Assembly (NCBI GenBank): GCA_014896315.1
Contig: JADBKP010000001.1
Span: 519,557 to 583,556 of the forward strand
Length of the DNA: 64,000 nucleotides
From: Limnochordales bacterium
GTDB taxonomy: Bacteria > Bacillota > Limnochordia > Limnochordales > DUMU01
Direction of reading: 5' to 3'
Shown here: in pieces, positions 54,899 through 62,529 of the stretch
Position numbering within the stretch: position 1 is the stretch's first letter
Layout: each line of letters starts with the position of its first letter
Program-made: the position numbers and the translations under genes
Notes under the pieces: model-generated
Databases searched by the model: none
What the model saw: only the letters and a program-made list of their open reading frames with translations
What the model was told of the DNA's origin: nothing

Positions 54899-56419
54899 TC
54901 ACGGCTTCATTAGTTCTATTTCGGTTCGCAGGGCAATGGAGAGCTCCACACGTTTTTTCTGCAAGGTGCAGAAGAGGGGGAGGGTAGCAGCGATGTCGCC
55001 GGCCAGCAGGTCGGCATTGGCGTGACATCCGCCGCCGCAGTAAAGCTTGGCCCAGCACCTGCGGCACTCCGGCTTGGACTGCGCATGAGTCCGGCGGAAA
55101 CGCTCGCTCAAAGTGCAGCCACCGTCCGGACTGAAACGTTGCACCGCGTCGGGGTCAAAGATCGAGCCCAGCCGGTAGGCATCCCGGCCTACGAACTGGT
55201 GGCACGGGTAGAGTTCACCTTCAGGGGTGACGGCCAGATACTGATACCCCGCGCCGCAGCCGCTGATGCGCCGGGCGACGCACGGCCCGGAGGGCGGCGC
55301 AAGCCGGAAGTGGAAGAACTCAAAGGGATCGCCTTTCGCTGCCTGTTCCAGGTATAGTTCGGCAAGCCTTTCGTATTCGGCGAGGAGTCGTGGCAGATCT
55401 TCTTCTTGCAGCGCCCAGGGCCGGTCGGGGAGGTCGACCACCGGTTCAAAGGAGATCTGCCGGAACCCGTGCTTAACCAGGTATTCGACGTCGGAGGCGA
55501 AATCCAGGTTAAAGCGGGTGAAAGTGCCCCGCACCCAGTAGTTTTGATCCACCAACGATGCGACTGCCTGCGTGACGTTGCGCAAGACCAGGGCGTGGCT
55601 GGGCTGGTCTCCCGCCCGCCGCCGCAGCCGGTCATGTACCTCGGGCCGGCCGTCGAGGCTGAGGATCACCTGGAAATGATGCTCATTTAGGAAGTCGGCG
55701 ATCTCGTCGCTCCAAATCAGGGCATTGGTGGTGAGAGTGAAGTTTACTTGCTTGTCGTGCTGGCGGGCAACTGTTTGGGCGTATGCGGTCGCCTCGCGGA
55801 CGACTTCCAAATTGAGCGTCGGTTCACCACCGAAGAAGTCGATCTGGAGAAAACGGGAAGCACCGGAGGCTTCAATGAGAAAATCAATGGCCCGGCAGGC
55901 GACTGTCAGCGGCATCCGGCGGGGGCCACGAGCGTGCCAGTCGGGCGCGGCAAAGCAGTACCGACAGGCTAGGTTGCAGTCCATGGCCACCAGCAGACAG
56001 AGGGCCTTGAGTGGCGTACCGATGCGGATTGGCTCTGGCTCAGCCCAAGACCCGGCCTCGGGGCTAGCCCCCGGTTTAACCTGGGCCTTGGACGGCGAGG
56101 CCGAGCAGGACTCGGAGCAGGAGACGGCGCGGACCAGTGTGCAGACCTCCTGCCAGGCTTCGGTGGCAACGGCACGACCGAAGCGGGAGACCAGGGTGTC
56201 AGGTACCTGCTCCGCGCTCTGGCCCGGCTCTTGCCCCTGGTCAATGCTGCACGTGTAGGCGCAGTCTGGCGGACCGAGGGTAGACCGGTCGAGCAGCACT
56301 TCCCAGGCGGCCGCAGCAGCTTCGTCCAGGAGGTGTACTACCCCGGTCTCGCCGTTTACCAGATAGTGGCGGCCGCGGAAGCTGAACTCATGCCAGGGCC
56401 ATCTTTGTGCGGCGGCCAC
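54899..56419 (-). CDS. SCIFF peptide maturase (radical SAM, SPASM-type)
   Basis: A radical SAM enzyme that forms thioether bonds in the SCIFF ranthipeptide (CteB-like). The N-terminal peptide-recognition region (WHEFSFRGRHYLVNGETGVVHLLDE) is followed by the CNLACRYC cluster motif (Cys148, 152, 155). The C-terminus has many Cys for auxiliary iron-sulfur clusters (CGAGYQYLAVTPEGELYPC, CRRCWAKLYCGGGC). I start it at GTG 56419 because AAGGAG lies 10 bp upstream; a longer frame to 56572 reads low-complexity Pro/Ala sequence. Length is 506 residues. It has a Ser/Cys/Pro-rich insert before the radical SAM domain. It overlaps the SCIFF gene by 32 bp. Confidence 0.93.
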   Translation of the reverse strand: MAAAQRWPWHEFSFRGRHYLVNGETGVVHLLDEAAAAAWEVLLDRSTLGPPDCAYTCSIDQGQEPGQSAEQVPDTLVSRFGRAVATEAWQEVCTLVRAVSCSESCSASPSKAQVKPGASPEAGSWAEPEPIRIGTPLKALCLLVAMDCNLACRYCFAAPDWHARGPRRMPLTVACRAIDFLIEASGASRFLQIDFFGGEPTLNLEVVREATAYAQTVARQHDKQVNFTLTTNALIWSDEIADFLNEHHFQVILSLDGRPEVHDRLRRRAGDQPSHALVLRNVTQAVASLVDQNYWVRGTFTRFNLDFASDVEYLVKHGFRQISFEPVVDLPDRPWALQEEDLPRLLAEYERLAELYLEQAAKGDPFEFFHFRLAPPSGPCVARRISGCGAGYQYLAVTPEGELYPCHQFVGRDAYRLGSIFDPDAVQRFSPDGGCTLSERFRRTHAQSKPECRRCWAKLYCGGGCHANADLLAGDIAATLPLFCTLQKKRVELSIALRTEIELMKP

Positions 56420-56615
56420 GATAGAAGGTCTCCTTGCTGCTCCGTTCTTGCTGTCCCTTGGGGCAGGACTGGCTGGCGACGGTGCAAGAGGTCTTGCAGG
56501 CGGACTGGCAGGAGGTGTTGCATTCATCGCAATTCCAGTCCGCGGCCTCATTACGCAGGATGCTCCAGCCAAGGGTCACCACATGCTTTCCTGTAGTTTC
56601 TAGAGTACCGCGCAT
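56388..56615 (-). CDS. SCIFF ranthipeptide precursor, extended
   Basis: A 75-residue precursor peptide with the SCIFF core ECNTSCQSACKTSCTV and six Cys at 29, 32, 36, 40, 44 and 51. Usual SCIFF peptides are about 46 residues and end just after the last Cys. This one continues 24 residues (KGQQERSSKETF...) into the maturase gene. The extension carries the maturase ribosome-binding site in its DNA, so it may be the price of tight coupling. The start MRGTLETTG has AAGGAGGGG upstream. It is followed by its maturase. Confidence 0.92.
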   Translation of the reverse strand: MRGTLETTGKHVVTLGWSILRNEAADWNCDECNTSCQSACKTSCTVASQSCPKGQQERSSKETFYRGRRTKMALA

Positions 56616-56761
56616 CCCGTTCCCCTCCTTGACGCGGTAATACTGAGACGCTGCCCGCAGTGCTGCTCCGGGCGCGTAAAGACCTTGTGACGCTATGATC
56701 ATACGCAGGACTGCCTGGGCAGCGCAAGGGTGTCGCAGGAGTGCAGGTTAGCAAGATTAAG

Positions 56762-59119: not shown

Positions 59120-59530
59120 GTGCTTGCGGATTATGAGGCCGTGATGAACGCTGCTGCCGACAGTACCAGGGCACGCATCCTCAAGATGCTTCAGACAGGG
59201 GAGCTCTGTGTCTGCCAGATTATGGCGGTTCTCGGTATGAATTCGTCCACCGTCTCCAAACACCTGGCCATTCTGAAAATGGCCGGTCTTGTCCGCAGCC
59301 GCAAGGAAGGTCGCTGGGTGTACTACTCACTCGAGTCGCGGGAGCGAAACCCCTACGCCCTCTCTGTTCTTCAGATGGTGCAAGGTTGGCTGGATGATGA
59401 CCCTGATGTGATCGCCGATCGCAAGAAGCTCAAGGTGGTCCTGGCCACTCCCCTGGACAAGATGTGTATCCAAGATGGCCGTGTCGTTCTCGCTGAACAT
59501 CAGAGGGTGAATGGGGAGGCTAAACTGTGA
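59120..59530 (+). CDS. arsR: ArsR family metalloid-responsive repressor
   Basis: A 136-residue winged-helix repressor. The arsenite-binding ELCVC motif (Cys30, Cys32) lies at the start of the DNA-binding region, followed by STVSKHLAILKMAGLVRSRKEGRWVYYSL. It releases DNA when As(III) or Sb(III) binds. It starts with GTG and overlaps arsC by 4 bp. The C-terminal 45 residues, with a third Cys (MCIQ), extend beyond the core. Confidence 0.94.
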   Translation: MLADYEAVMNAAADSTRARILKMLQTGELCVCQIMAVLGMNSSTVSKHLAILKMAGLVRSRKEGRWVYYSLESRERNPYALSVLQMVQGWLDDDPDVIADRKKLKVVLATPLDKMCIQDGRVVLAEHQRVNGEAKL

Positions 59531-60000
59531 AACCCATCAGAGTATTGTTTGTCTGCACTGCCAACTCTTGCCGCAGCCAGATGGCCGAGGCGTGGGCCAG
59601 GATGCTACACCAGGGGAAGATCGAAGCTTTCTCGGCGGGGACGGAGCCTGGGAATGTGCACCCTCTGGCGATCCAGGTCATGGCCGAAGCAGGAGTCGAC
59701 CTGGCGTCCCATCGCAGCAAGCACTTGCGGGAGTTTCTGGGCCAGCAGTTCGACTACGTTATCACCCTCTGCGGCGATGCCCGCGACAGATGCCCGGTTT
59801 TCCCGGGGGCAGCCCGCATTGTGCACGTGGGCTTCCCCGACCCTGCAAGAGCCACCGGCACACCGGAAGAGGTGCTGAATGAGTTTCGGCGTGTGCGGGA
59901 CATGATTCGTGACTTCGTAGCGGGACTGCCATGGTCGCTTGCCAATGCAGACTCTCTGCCCTTTCATTCTGCCGACTCCCAGGAGGATGAGAACCCGTGA
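59527..60000 (+). CDS. arsC: Arsenate reductase, thioredoxin-coupled type
   Basis: Reduces arsenate to arsenite using a low-molecular-weight phosphatase fold. The P-loop is CTANSCR (Cys10 to Arg16), and the two further redox Cys, Cys82 and Cys89, match the thioredoxin-coupled triad. A DPAR motif supplies the catalytic Asp. Length is 157 residues. It overlaps both arsR and acr3 by 4 bp. Confidence 0.95.
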
Positions 60001-61067
60001 AGCAGTCTACGGCTGAACAGTCGGTAGCCCAACGTCTATCTTTTCTGGACCGGTATCTTACGCTATGGATCTTCCTGGCCATGATCGTGGGGGTGGCATC
60101 GGGCTACCTTGTACCGCAGTTAGTCGAGTTGATGACTCGTTTTCAGGTTGGTACGACATCCATCCCTATCGCCATCGGCTTGATTCTCATGATGTATCCG
60201 CCTCTGGCCAAGGTGCGCTACGAGGAGCTGGGCCACGTCTTCCGCAATACCAGGGTGCTGGCTCTCTCCCTGGTTCAAAACTGGCTGGTCGGGCCGGTAT
60301 TCATGTGGGTGCTCGCCGTGGTTTTCCTGCGGCATTACCCGGAGTATATGGCAGGCCTCATCATGATTGGCCTGGCCCGCTGCATTGCCATGGTAATCGT
60401 GTGGAACGAACTGGCAAGAGGTGATACCGAATACGCTGCGGGGCTTGTGGCCTTCAACTCCATCTTTCAGGTGCTGTTTTATTCCGTGTATTCCTACGTA
60501 TTCCTCACGGTGCTGCCCCGTCTGGTCGGTCTGGAGGGCACGGTAGTGCACGTCTCCATGCGCCAGATTGCGGAAAGCGTCCTGATCTACCTCGGCATCC
60601 CCTTCTTTGGCGGCATGCTGACACGATTCCTGCTGATGCGTCTGAAGGGGCGTGTGTGGTACGAGAGAGTCTTTATCCCGAAGATCAACCCTCTGACCTT
60701 AGTAGCTCTCCTATTCACCATCGTGGTGATGTTCTCCCTCAAAGGTGAAGTCATCGTACAGCTGCCCCTGGACGTACTGCGTATCGCCGTGCCTTTGCTT
60801 ATCTACTTTGTGGGCATGTTCCTGGTCTCTTTCTTCATGGGGAAACGAGTGGGCGCCGACTACTCCACGGCGACAACCCTTGCCTTCACCGCAGCGAGTA
60901 ACAACTTCGAGCTGGCCATCGCCGTTGCCGTCGCCGTCTTCGGGATCGAATCGGGAGCGGCTTTCGCGGCGGTGGTTGGTCCCCTCGTCGAGGTGCCCGT
61001 TATGATCTCACTGGTTAACATAGCCCTCCGGCTTCAGCGGAAGTACTTCCCGCAGGAATCCAAGTAG
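59997..61067 (+). CDS. acr3: Arsenite efflux permease ACR3
   Basis: A membrane carrier of the bile/arsenite/riboflavin superfamily with about ten helices that expels arsenite. The conserved Cys129 is in [13 protein letters not shown], and [20 protein letters not shown] and [10 protein letters not shown] are family signatures. Length is 356 residues. It is the last gene of arsR-arsC-acr3. A weak hairpin with CTTTTTG follows near 61110. Confidence 0.96.
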
Positions 61068-61586: not shown

Positions 61587-62348
61587 TCAGTCTGTCCTTC
61601 CCGTCAGAATGTGCAGGGCCTCTCGAATGGCGGAGGCAACCTCCTGCCGGGAACCTGGTGCGGCCTGGTAGTCGAAGTTTTTAATGAAGGTCTCCAGCTG
61701 GCTGCCGATTCGTTCGAGACGCCGCTTGGTACTGCTCTTAATGAACTGCATGAACTCGGCCAGTTCGTAGCTACGCAGCTCCTGGCGGGCTTCCGCCAGC
61801 AGCATGCGGGAGTGGGGCAGGCAGATCATCCGGACGTTTCTGAACAGCTCTCGAAAGTCGCTCTTCGTACCGTAGAGCTTGGCTGCCGTCTGGCAGTACT
61901 GACGCACCGCTGCCTCCACGTCGGCGCAGACGATGCAGTGAACGGCGGGATTTGTGTAATTAGCGGCCGCGGGGCAAAAGAGCGCCCGCAGACGAACAAA
62001 CGGTGTATCGTTAGTGGCAGGCTTGGCCGAGGTAGGGGAGGTTGCTGCTGGCGTCATCGTTGTTCTGGCGGCCTGGCTTACCAGCGCTTGCAGCAGAATC
62101 GCCAGCCCCAGGCGGTCAGTTCCCTGGAGCAGGCGCAGGAAATGAGTCCGGCACACTCCTTCCTTCTCGACCCGGTGGCGAAAGGCCGGATCCATCAGCT
62201 TTTCACCCAGCAGGTGCTCGAGGGCATTGGCTTCCGCCCGCATCTCGGGACGGCAGAGCGGGCACAATTCACCGGGCGACTGAGCTGCCCGGAAGGCATC
62301 GACCACCGGCACAACTTCTATCGACTCCCCGCGGGTCTCAGGTCTCAT
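61587..62348 (-). CDS. DUF6062 family protein, fluoride-regulated
   Basis: A 253-residue protein with a Cys-rich pattern: CPLC near residue 30, GVCRTHFLRLLQ, HCIVC in the middle, then CLPHSRMLL and a C-terminal FIKNFDYQ. The paired Cys/His motifs look like metal or iron-sulfur sites. This matches DUF6062; the function is unknown. The ATG at 62348 has AGGTGG six bases upstream and lies after the riboswitch terminator. A longer open frame to 62447 would run through the riboswitch and is rejected. A Thr/Ala/Pro linker lies near residue 100. crcB is next. Confidence 0.85.
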   Translation of the reverse strand: MRPETRGESIEVVPVVDAFRAAQSPGELCPLCRPEMRAEANALEHLLGEKLMDPAFRHRVEKEGVCRTHFLRLLQGTDRLGLAILLQALVSQAARTTMTPAATSPTSAKPATNDTPFVRLRALFCPAAANYTNPAVHCIVCADVEAAVRQYCQTAAKLYGTKSDFRELFRNVRMICLPHSRMLLAEARQELRSYELAEFMQFIKSSTKRRLERIGSQLETFIKNFDYQAAPGSRQEVASAIREALHILTGRTD

Positions 62349-62384
62349 CAGAGCCACCTCGTCGACCGGCAGGGGCGGCAGAAA

Positions 62385-62416
62385 ACAAAAACCCCTACCA
62401 GCCATGTTCTGGTAGG
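62385..62416 (-). terminator. Terminator of the fluoride riboswitch
   Basis: On the minus strand CCTACCAG and CTGGTAGG form an 8-bp stem with a 7-nt loop, followed by GGTTTTTGTTTTC. The stem takes bases from the 3' end of the aptamer (CTCCTACC), so aptamer folding and termination exclude each other. Confidence 0.9.
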
Positions 62417-62468
62417 AGCTATCAGCCGGTCTGATCATGCCCGGCACTTATGGGCGAGCTCCATCGCC
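62411..62468 (-). promoter_or_regulatory. Fluoride riboswitch (crcB motif)
   Basis: On the minus strand the element begins GGCGATGGAGCTCGCC and ends GGCTGATAGCTCCTACC. GGCG pairs with CGCC, GCCGG with CCGGC, and GGAGCT forms the pseudoknot with AGCTCC. The invariant GCTGAT and CTCCTAC positions match the known crcB motif. It lies about 26 nt after the predicted transcription start. When fluoride binds, the overlapping terminator should not form, switching on DUF6062 and crcB. Confidence 0.95.
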
Positions 62469-62500
62469 GCTTCTGCTTAAGCCTGTTTGATGTTAGCTCT

Positions 62501-62529
62501 AGTATAGCAGCGCGGCAGACGGAGGGCAA
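62501..62529 (-). promoter_or_regulatory. Promoter of the fluoride-response operon
   Basis: TTGCCC (62524-62529) and TATACT (62501-62506) on the minus strand are exactly 17 bp apart. The start point near 62494 gives a leader of about 145 nt containing the riboswitch. Confidence 0.85.

Follow-up and report, generated by a model that had tools for sequence, protein, structure and literature searches.

The window, i.e., the whole stretch of 64,000 nucleotides from a Limnochordales bacterium that was analysed here, carries on its reverse strand a fluoride riboswitch aptamer, an overlapping intrinsic terminator, a gene for a protein of the DUF6062 family and crcB, in this order (Table 1). Direct reading of the sequence shows that the DUF6062 open reading frame is intact, starting with the ATG at 62348. 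The aptamer, which scores above the gathering score of RF01734 (34 bits), is the sole fluoride riboswitch of the whole genome. The crcB gene starts 86 nt downstream of DUF6062, and the terminator scan returned no terminator-like site in the gap between the two; its product is assigned to CrcB by its family scores (the cut-off of TIGR00494 is 80.45 bits) and by its size, which is that of a small membrane protein. A preliminary description of this DNA had placed DUF6062 directly under a fluoride riboswitch and before crcB, and the matches to RF01734, PF02537 and the DUF6062 family PF19538 (161.2 bits) bear this out.

Table 1 Features of the fluoride-riboswitch operon, given as positions in the window
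Feature	Position	Strand	Basis
Sigma-70-like promoter TTGCCC-17-TATACT, 5' of the riboswitch	62501..62529	-	consensus scan, 9/12 matches
Fluoride riboswitch aptamer (crcB motif, RF01734)	62406..62477	-	48.3 bits, E 2.6e-10
Intrinsic terminator (expression platform)	62390..62420	-	12-pair stem, then T-rich tail
Ribosome-binding site GAGGTGG	62354..62360	-	direct sequence reading, just 5' of the DUF6062 ATG
DUF6062 protein, 253 aa, soluble, all-alpha, internally duplicated	61587..62348	-	PF19538
CPLC (C29, C32), first half of putative metal site 1	62253..62264	-	invariant in 29 diverse sequences; 98-99% in 143
CRTH (C66, H69), second half of putative metal site 1	62142..62153	-	invariant in 29 diverse sequences; 99% in 143
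CIVC (C138, C141), first half of putative metal site 2	61926..61937	-	invariant in 29 diverse sequences; 98-99% in 143
CLPH (C176, H179), second half of putative metal site 2	61812..61823	-	invariant in 29 diverse sequences; 99% in 143
crcB/Fluc predicted fluoride channel, 124 aa	61126..61500	-	PF02537, 96.4 bits; TIGR00494, 93.5 bits

The terminator is predicted to fold with -18 kcal/mol (z -4.5), and its 5' arm reuses the 3' strand of the aptamer, so that the overlap constitutes an expression platform excluding the aptamer; judged from the sequence, this arrangement is as expected for an ON switch. Among 30 related aptamers, P1 and the pseudoknot are preserved by covariation, with 99.7% of cells paired and double-sided changes in 8 of the 10 aptamer pairs, while shuffled and slid controls gave far lower values; because of the covariation in 8 of 10 pairs, we judge the RF01734 aptamers to be real. 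The same order of aptamer, DUF6062 and crcB is found in a genome of the same genus (G398) and in one of the same family (G399), the latter and the Limnochordaceae MAG Bu26 (L170) encoding identical DUF6062 proteins. The terminators of these two relatives have their own differing sequences, yet both again pair with the aptamer 3' strand.

This anatomy and its conservation make it near certain that DUF6062 is regulated by fluoride, with the riboswitch as the predicted controlling element. In the absence of fluoride the leader would fold as the terminator; in its presence the aptamer would sequester the strand required for this fold, and polymerase would enter DUF6062 and then crcB, whose product would let fluoride out.

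Two further gene groups in the window were noted. An arsenic operon, encoding an ArsR-type regulator, an arsenate-reductase-like LMW phosphatase and Acr3 (59120-61067, forward strand), is convergent with the fluoride operon, and a Cys-rich short ORF (CDECNTSCQSACKTSC) adjoins a radical-SAM-like ORF (54899-56702, reverse strand), a pair that we take to resemble the SCIFF peptide and its maturase.

Linkage of DUF6062 to fluoride riboswitches

Among 398 genomes drawn evenly from the phylum of the source organism, 53 have DUF6062, with 63 genes in all. Nineteen of the 63 genes, from 11 families, start at most 250 nt downstream of a same-strand aptamer, compared with 0.005 genes expected by chance under random gene placement. 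Six of these 19 genes come from one family (f91), and 7 of the 19 linked aptamers score under the Rfam gathering score, without which 12 genes in 6 families are left. A further 7 genes, most of them operon-internal, are found at a distance of 250-3000 nt from an upstream aptamer, and when the remaining cluster and crcB cases are counted, the riboswitch- or crcB-linked total reaches 32 of 63. At the level of genomes the association is weaker, RF01734 being present in 32 of the 53 genomes with DUF6062 versus 123 of 345 genomes (odds ratio 2.75, p 8e-4). The association is thus one of position and not of mere co-occurrence. The genes that follow DUF6062 differ among the directly riboswitch-adjacent loci of the 11 bacterial families. 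A search of a plasmid collection for DUF6062 returned one Monoglobus record only.

A replication of the linkage comes from archaea. The Bathyarchaeota contig L138, found in a scan of named genomes, carries a DUF6062 gene with an upstream aptamer; among 300 genomes of its phylum 24 have DUF6062, in 10 of which a same-strand aptamer lies upstream. At nine archaeal loci (L138, L240-L247) the aptamer precedes a gene for a prenyltransferase-type alpha-alpha toroid protein, after which comes DUF6062. Chance or artefact as the source of the linkage is rejected by the positional count together with this archaeal replication, and the enrichment near fluoride riboswitches or crcB that had been named beforehand as the test of a conserved link is found in both domains.

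The link is not universal. The named-genome scan, the query of which was a four-sequence alignment biased towards one side of the family, returned 80 DUF6062 loci, mostly from gut Clostridia, of which only 4 have an aptamer; neither dynamin nor crcB genes were found at its aptamer-less loci. The conserved fluoride link proposed in the preliminary description thus holds in bacteria and archaea, but roughly half of the DUF6062 genes lack a link to a riboswitch or crcB, among them those of a large clade composed mostly of gut Clostridia; riboswitch control, taken as a criterion for the fluoride-tolerance class, was found for part of the family only. In a tree of 65 DUF6062 sequences, in which L105, with its aptamer ~4.4 kb upstream, was counted as a linked tip, the linked state requires 8 changes compared with 22 for shuffled labels. 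It is found in both main branches, and is therefore either old with losses or gained repeatedly. The unlinked Clostridia loci (L114, L130, L127, L160 and similar) have a conserved neighbour set of their own, which on sequence reading resembles dCMP deaminase, DRTGG, PHP and iron-sulphur/hydrogenase genes.

Neighbours in the fluoride-riboswitch islands

In the linked loci, DUF6062 is repeatedly accompanied by a dynamin-family GTPase, a Na+/H+ exchanger of the CPA2 type, Usp, HEAT-repeat and MFS proteins, and tandem MutS-like proteins. The GTPase belongs to PF00350, retains the GTPase motifs and is related to the bacterial dynamin-like proteins Nostoc BDLP (2j68, E 4e-38) and IniA (6j72, E 4e-25), which are kin of this GTPase and not of DUF6062. 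It is a partner of DUF6062 by gene position, and is missing from the operon in the window; none of the dynamin-like genes of the window's genome (G000) has a riboswitch, and they are either on different contigs or at a great distance. One tandem pair of such genes (G000:C20:136975-139259) is on a contig different from that of the only fluoride riboswitch of this genome. An obligate pairing of dynamin and DUF6062 is rejected, as there are islands with either alone and many with dynamin but without DUF6062. A search of the literature available to us found no mention of dynamin together with fluoride riboswitches.

Dynamin-like GTPase genes were observed in the fluoride-riboswitch islands L061-L063, L066, L068, L069, L072-L074, L078-L081, L083, L086 and L087, in L188, L190, L191 and L193-L195, and in the archaeal L244, which additionally has a MutS-like pair, MFS and P-type ATPase genes. 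The island GTPase gene is single, with or without DUF6062, and is at times the first gene after the aptamer. Tandem pairs of MutS-like ATPases (~500 aa each) adjoin the aptamers at L067, L069, L073, L079, L188-L191 and L193. At L081 (3992-5955, reverse strand) a decayed fluoride island was seen, in which a truncated dynamin-like gene is followed by a fusion ORF with an enolase fragment in frame with the C-terminal part of DUF6062; the fusion is either a rearrangement or a misassembly.

The DUF6062 protein and its role in fluoride tolerance

The protein encoded in the window aligns with PF19538 over profile positions 3-239 of 243, far above the gathering cut-off of 27 bits, and has all conserved residues of this family, to which Pfam assigns no function and of which the fluoride-linked members are only a part. 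The AlphaFold model is all-alpha (mean pLDDT 84.8), and no membrane-like stretch was found (maximum 19-residue hydropathy 1.19), in line with the earlier description of the protein as soluble. That description had also pointed to repeated Cys/His pairs in CPLC, HCIVC and CLPH; these are real, and CRTH (66-69) adds a further one, giving four pairs at residues 29-32, 66-69, 138-141 and 176-179. Across 143 sequences, archaeal members included, the eight Cys/His (alignment columns 48, 51, 85, 88, 157, 160, 195 and 198) are 98-99% conserved, and besides them no column exceeds 92%, the next best being a Gly and a Leu at this value. The two halves of the protein are homologous by hhalign (P 7e-13), each with CxxC-x33-CxxH. 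The conserved Cys/His look like two metal sites belonging to DUF6062 itself, and are probably structural zinc sites of the C2CH type.

CxxC and CxxH ligand pairs are shared with zinc ribbons, RING/IBR, the zinc hook and rubredoxin-like proteins; unlike these small zinc-binding families, DUF6062 is all-helical, and a fold search with its model gave no match at E 0.001 or better in the PDB or a viral library. The best PDB sequence match, ribosomal bS18 (E 0.029), was dismissed as a chance CxxC similarity, and no second Pfam family was convincing, with only scattered, sub-threshold zinc-family matches.

In many distantly related bacteria and some archaea, DUF6062 very probably makes a so far unrecognised contribution to survival under fluoride, and the company that its gene keeps makes a role in fluoride tolerance likely. 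Our overall reading, held with moderate confidence, is of a fluoride-inducible operon in which DUF6062 is a metal-folded accessory of tolerance, with a lean towards an adaptor step. DUF6062 would be a dedicated accessory, a soluble protein whose duplicated helical body is held together by two metal sites of the C2CH type, and would serve the remaining fluoride-stress machinery as an adaptor or scaffold instead of an enzyme. In the lineage of the window its partner would be CrcB, in archaea the prenyltransferase-fold (alpha-alpha toroid) protein, and in other lineages the dynamin-like GTPase, the HEAT-repeat protein, the CPA2 antiporter and further proteins of the islands. We lean this way because of the two probable structural sites, the duplicated helical body, the lack of conserved catalytic residues and the varied partners; the choice of an adaptor over another mechanism, inferred from the missing catalytic residues and the neighbours, is a tentative one. 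Since about half of the DUF6062 genes are unlinked, the biochemical role need not concern fluoride as such.

The strongest rival is metal handling, in which the thiol sites of DUF6062 would carry, buffer or donate metal, as zinc or an iron-sulphur type centre, to fluoride-damaged enzymes. Its appeal lies in the two CxxC-x33-CxxH sets, whose conservation nothing else in the protein approaches, but we consider it unlikely: fluoride sequesters hard ions (Mg, Ca, Al) and not thiol-bound soft metals, the ligand spacing and the duplication suit structural sites, and no match to a chaperone or metal-donor family was found in Pfam or by fold. A review reports a disturbance of divalent-metal homeostasis by fluoride and, in fluoride operons, an over-representation of metal transporters (PMC11139923), which speaks for metal handling. 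The repair or protection of a metalloprotein hit by fluoride, as suggested in the preliminary description, gained no specific support, given that the conserved residues resemble metal sites of DUF6062 itself and that DUF6062, at most linked loci, has no crcB directly next to it and is instead surrounded by genes for a dynamin-like GTPase, a Na+/H+ antiporter and Usp, MFS and HEAT proteins. The near-invariant Cys/His could also form the active site of an enzyme whose substrate would be a damaged metabolite or an adduct produced by fluoride, and the absence of a fold match leaves room for a novel activity; with no further near-invariant polar residue in the 143 sequences, and with the ligand pattern occurring twice in homologous halves, as in structural metal sites, an enzyme is very unlikely.

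DUF6062 adjoins crcB in the window and in G398, G399, G288, G353, G049, G065 and G168, which would fit a specific partner or modulator of CrcB/Fluc, e.g., a factor for assembly, gating or membrane recruitment. However, only 18 of the 53 genomes with DUF6062 have any CRCB match, which rejects crcB as an obligate partner, and in the majority of linked loci DUF6062 has no adjacent crcB; to our knowledge, fluoride channels are described as functional without a cytosolic partner, and a CrcB-specific role is quite unlikely. As a passenger, DUF6062 would be a protein of ordinary housekeeping type and its presence in fluoride islands accidental, which would agree with the unlinked half of the family and with the Clostridia clade, where its genes appear to stand beside those for dCMP deaminase-like and iron-sulphur proteins. 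This is most improbable in view of the direct riboswitch adjacency, with varied downstream genes and far beyond the chance expectation, and of the riboswitch-led DUF6062 operons that recur in archaea.

An extension of the adaptor reading, which we regard as doubtful, makes DUF6062 a core, unrecognised component of a fluoride-defence island common to bacteria and archaea, in which the riboswitch would drive a metal-folded adaptor and a dynamin-like membrane GTPase; if true, membrane remodelling or repair would belong to fluoride resistance besides export. Work on fluoride resistance mostly concerns export, and DUF6062 points to unstudied non-exporter parts of the regulon, which include the dynamin-like GTPase and the HEAT and toroid proteins. 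The riboswitch position in 11 bacterial families and the riboswitch-led archaeal operons provide a first functional handle for DUF6062, for which simple deletion and binding tests are now feasible.

A search of the literature available to us found no mention of DUF6062, which does not prove priority. In the parts of the published accounts available to us, fluoride-riboswitch operons comprise the exporters CrcB/Fluc and CLC-F with accessory Na+/H+ antiporters, pyrophosphatase, enolase and formate hydrogen lyase (PMC11139923), and mutS and K+ or Cl- transport genes are riboswitch-associated (PMC2864571). DUF6062, the dynamin-like GTPase, the HEAT proteins and the archaeal toroid proteins are not found among the regulon genes in these same parts (PMC11139923, PMC2864571), whereas the CPA2 antiporter, the MutS-like proteins and the enolase fragment of the related islands fit the known fluoride regulon. 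With the known operons the window has in common the RF01734 aptamer, the overlapping terminator and the presence of crcB in the operon.
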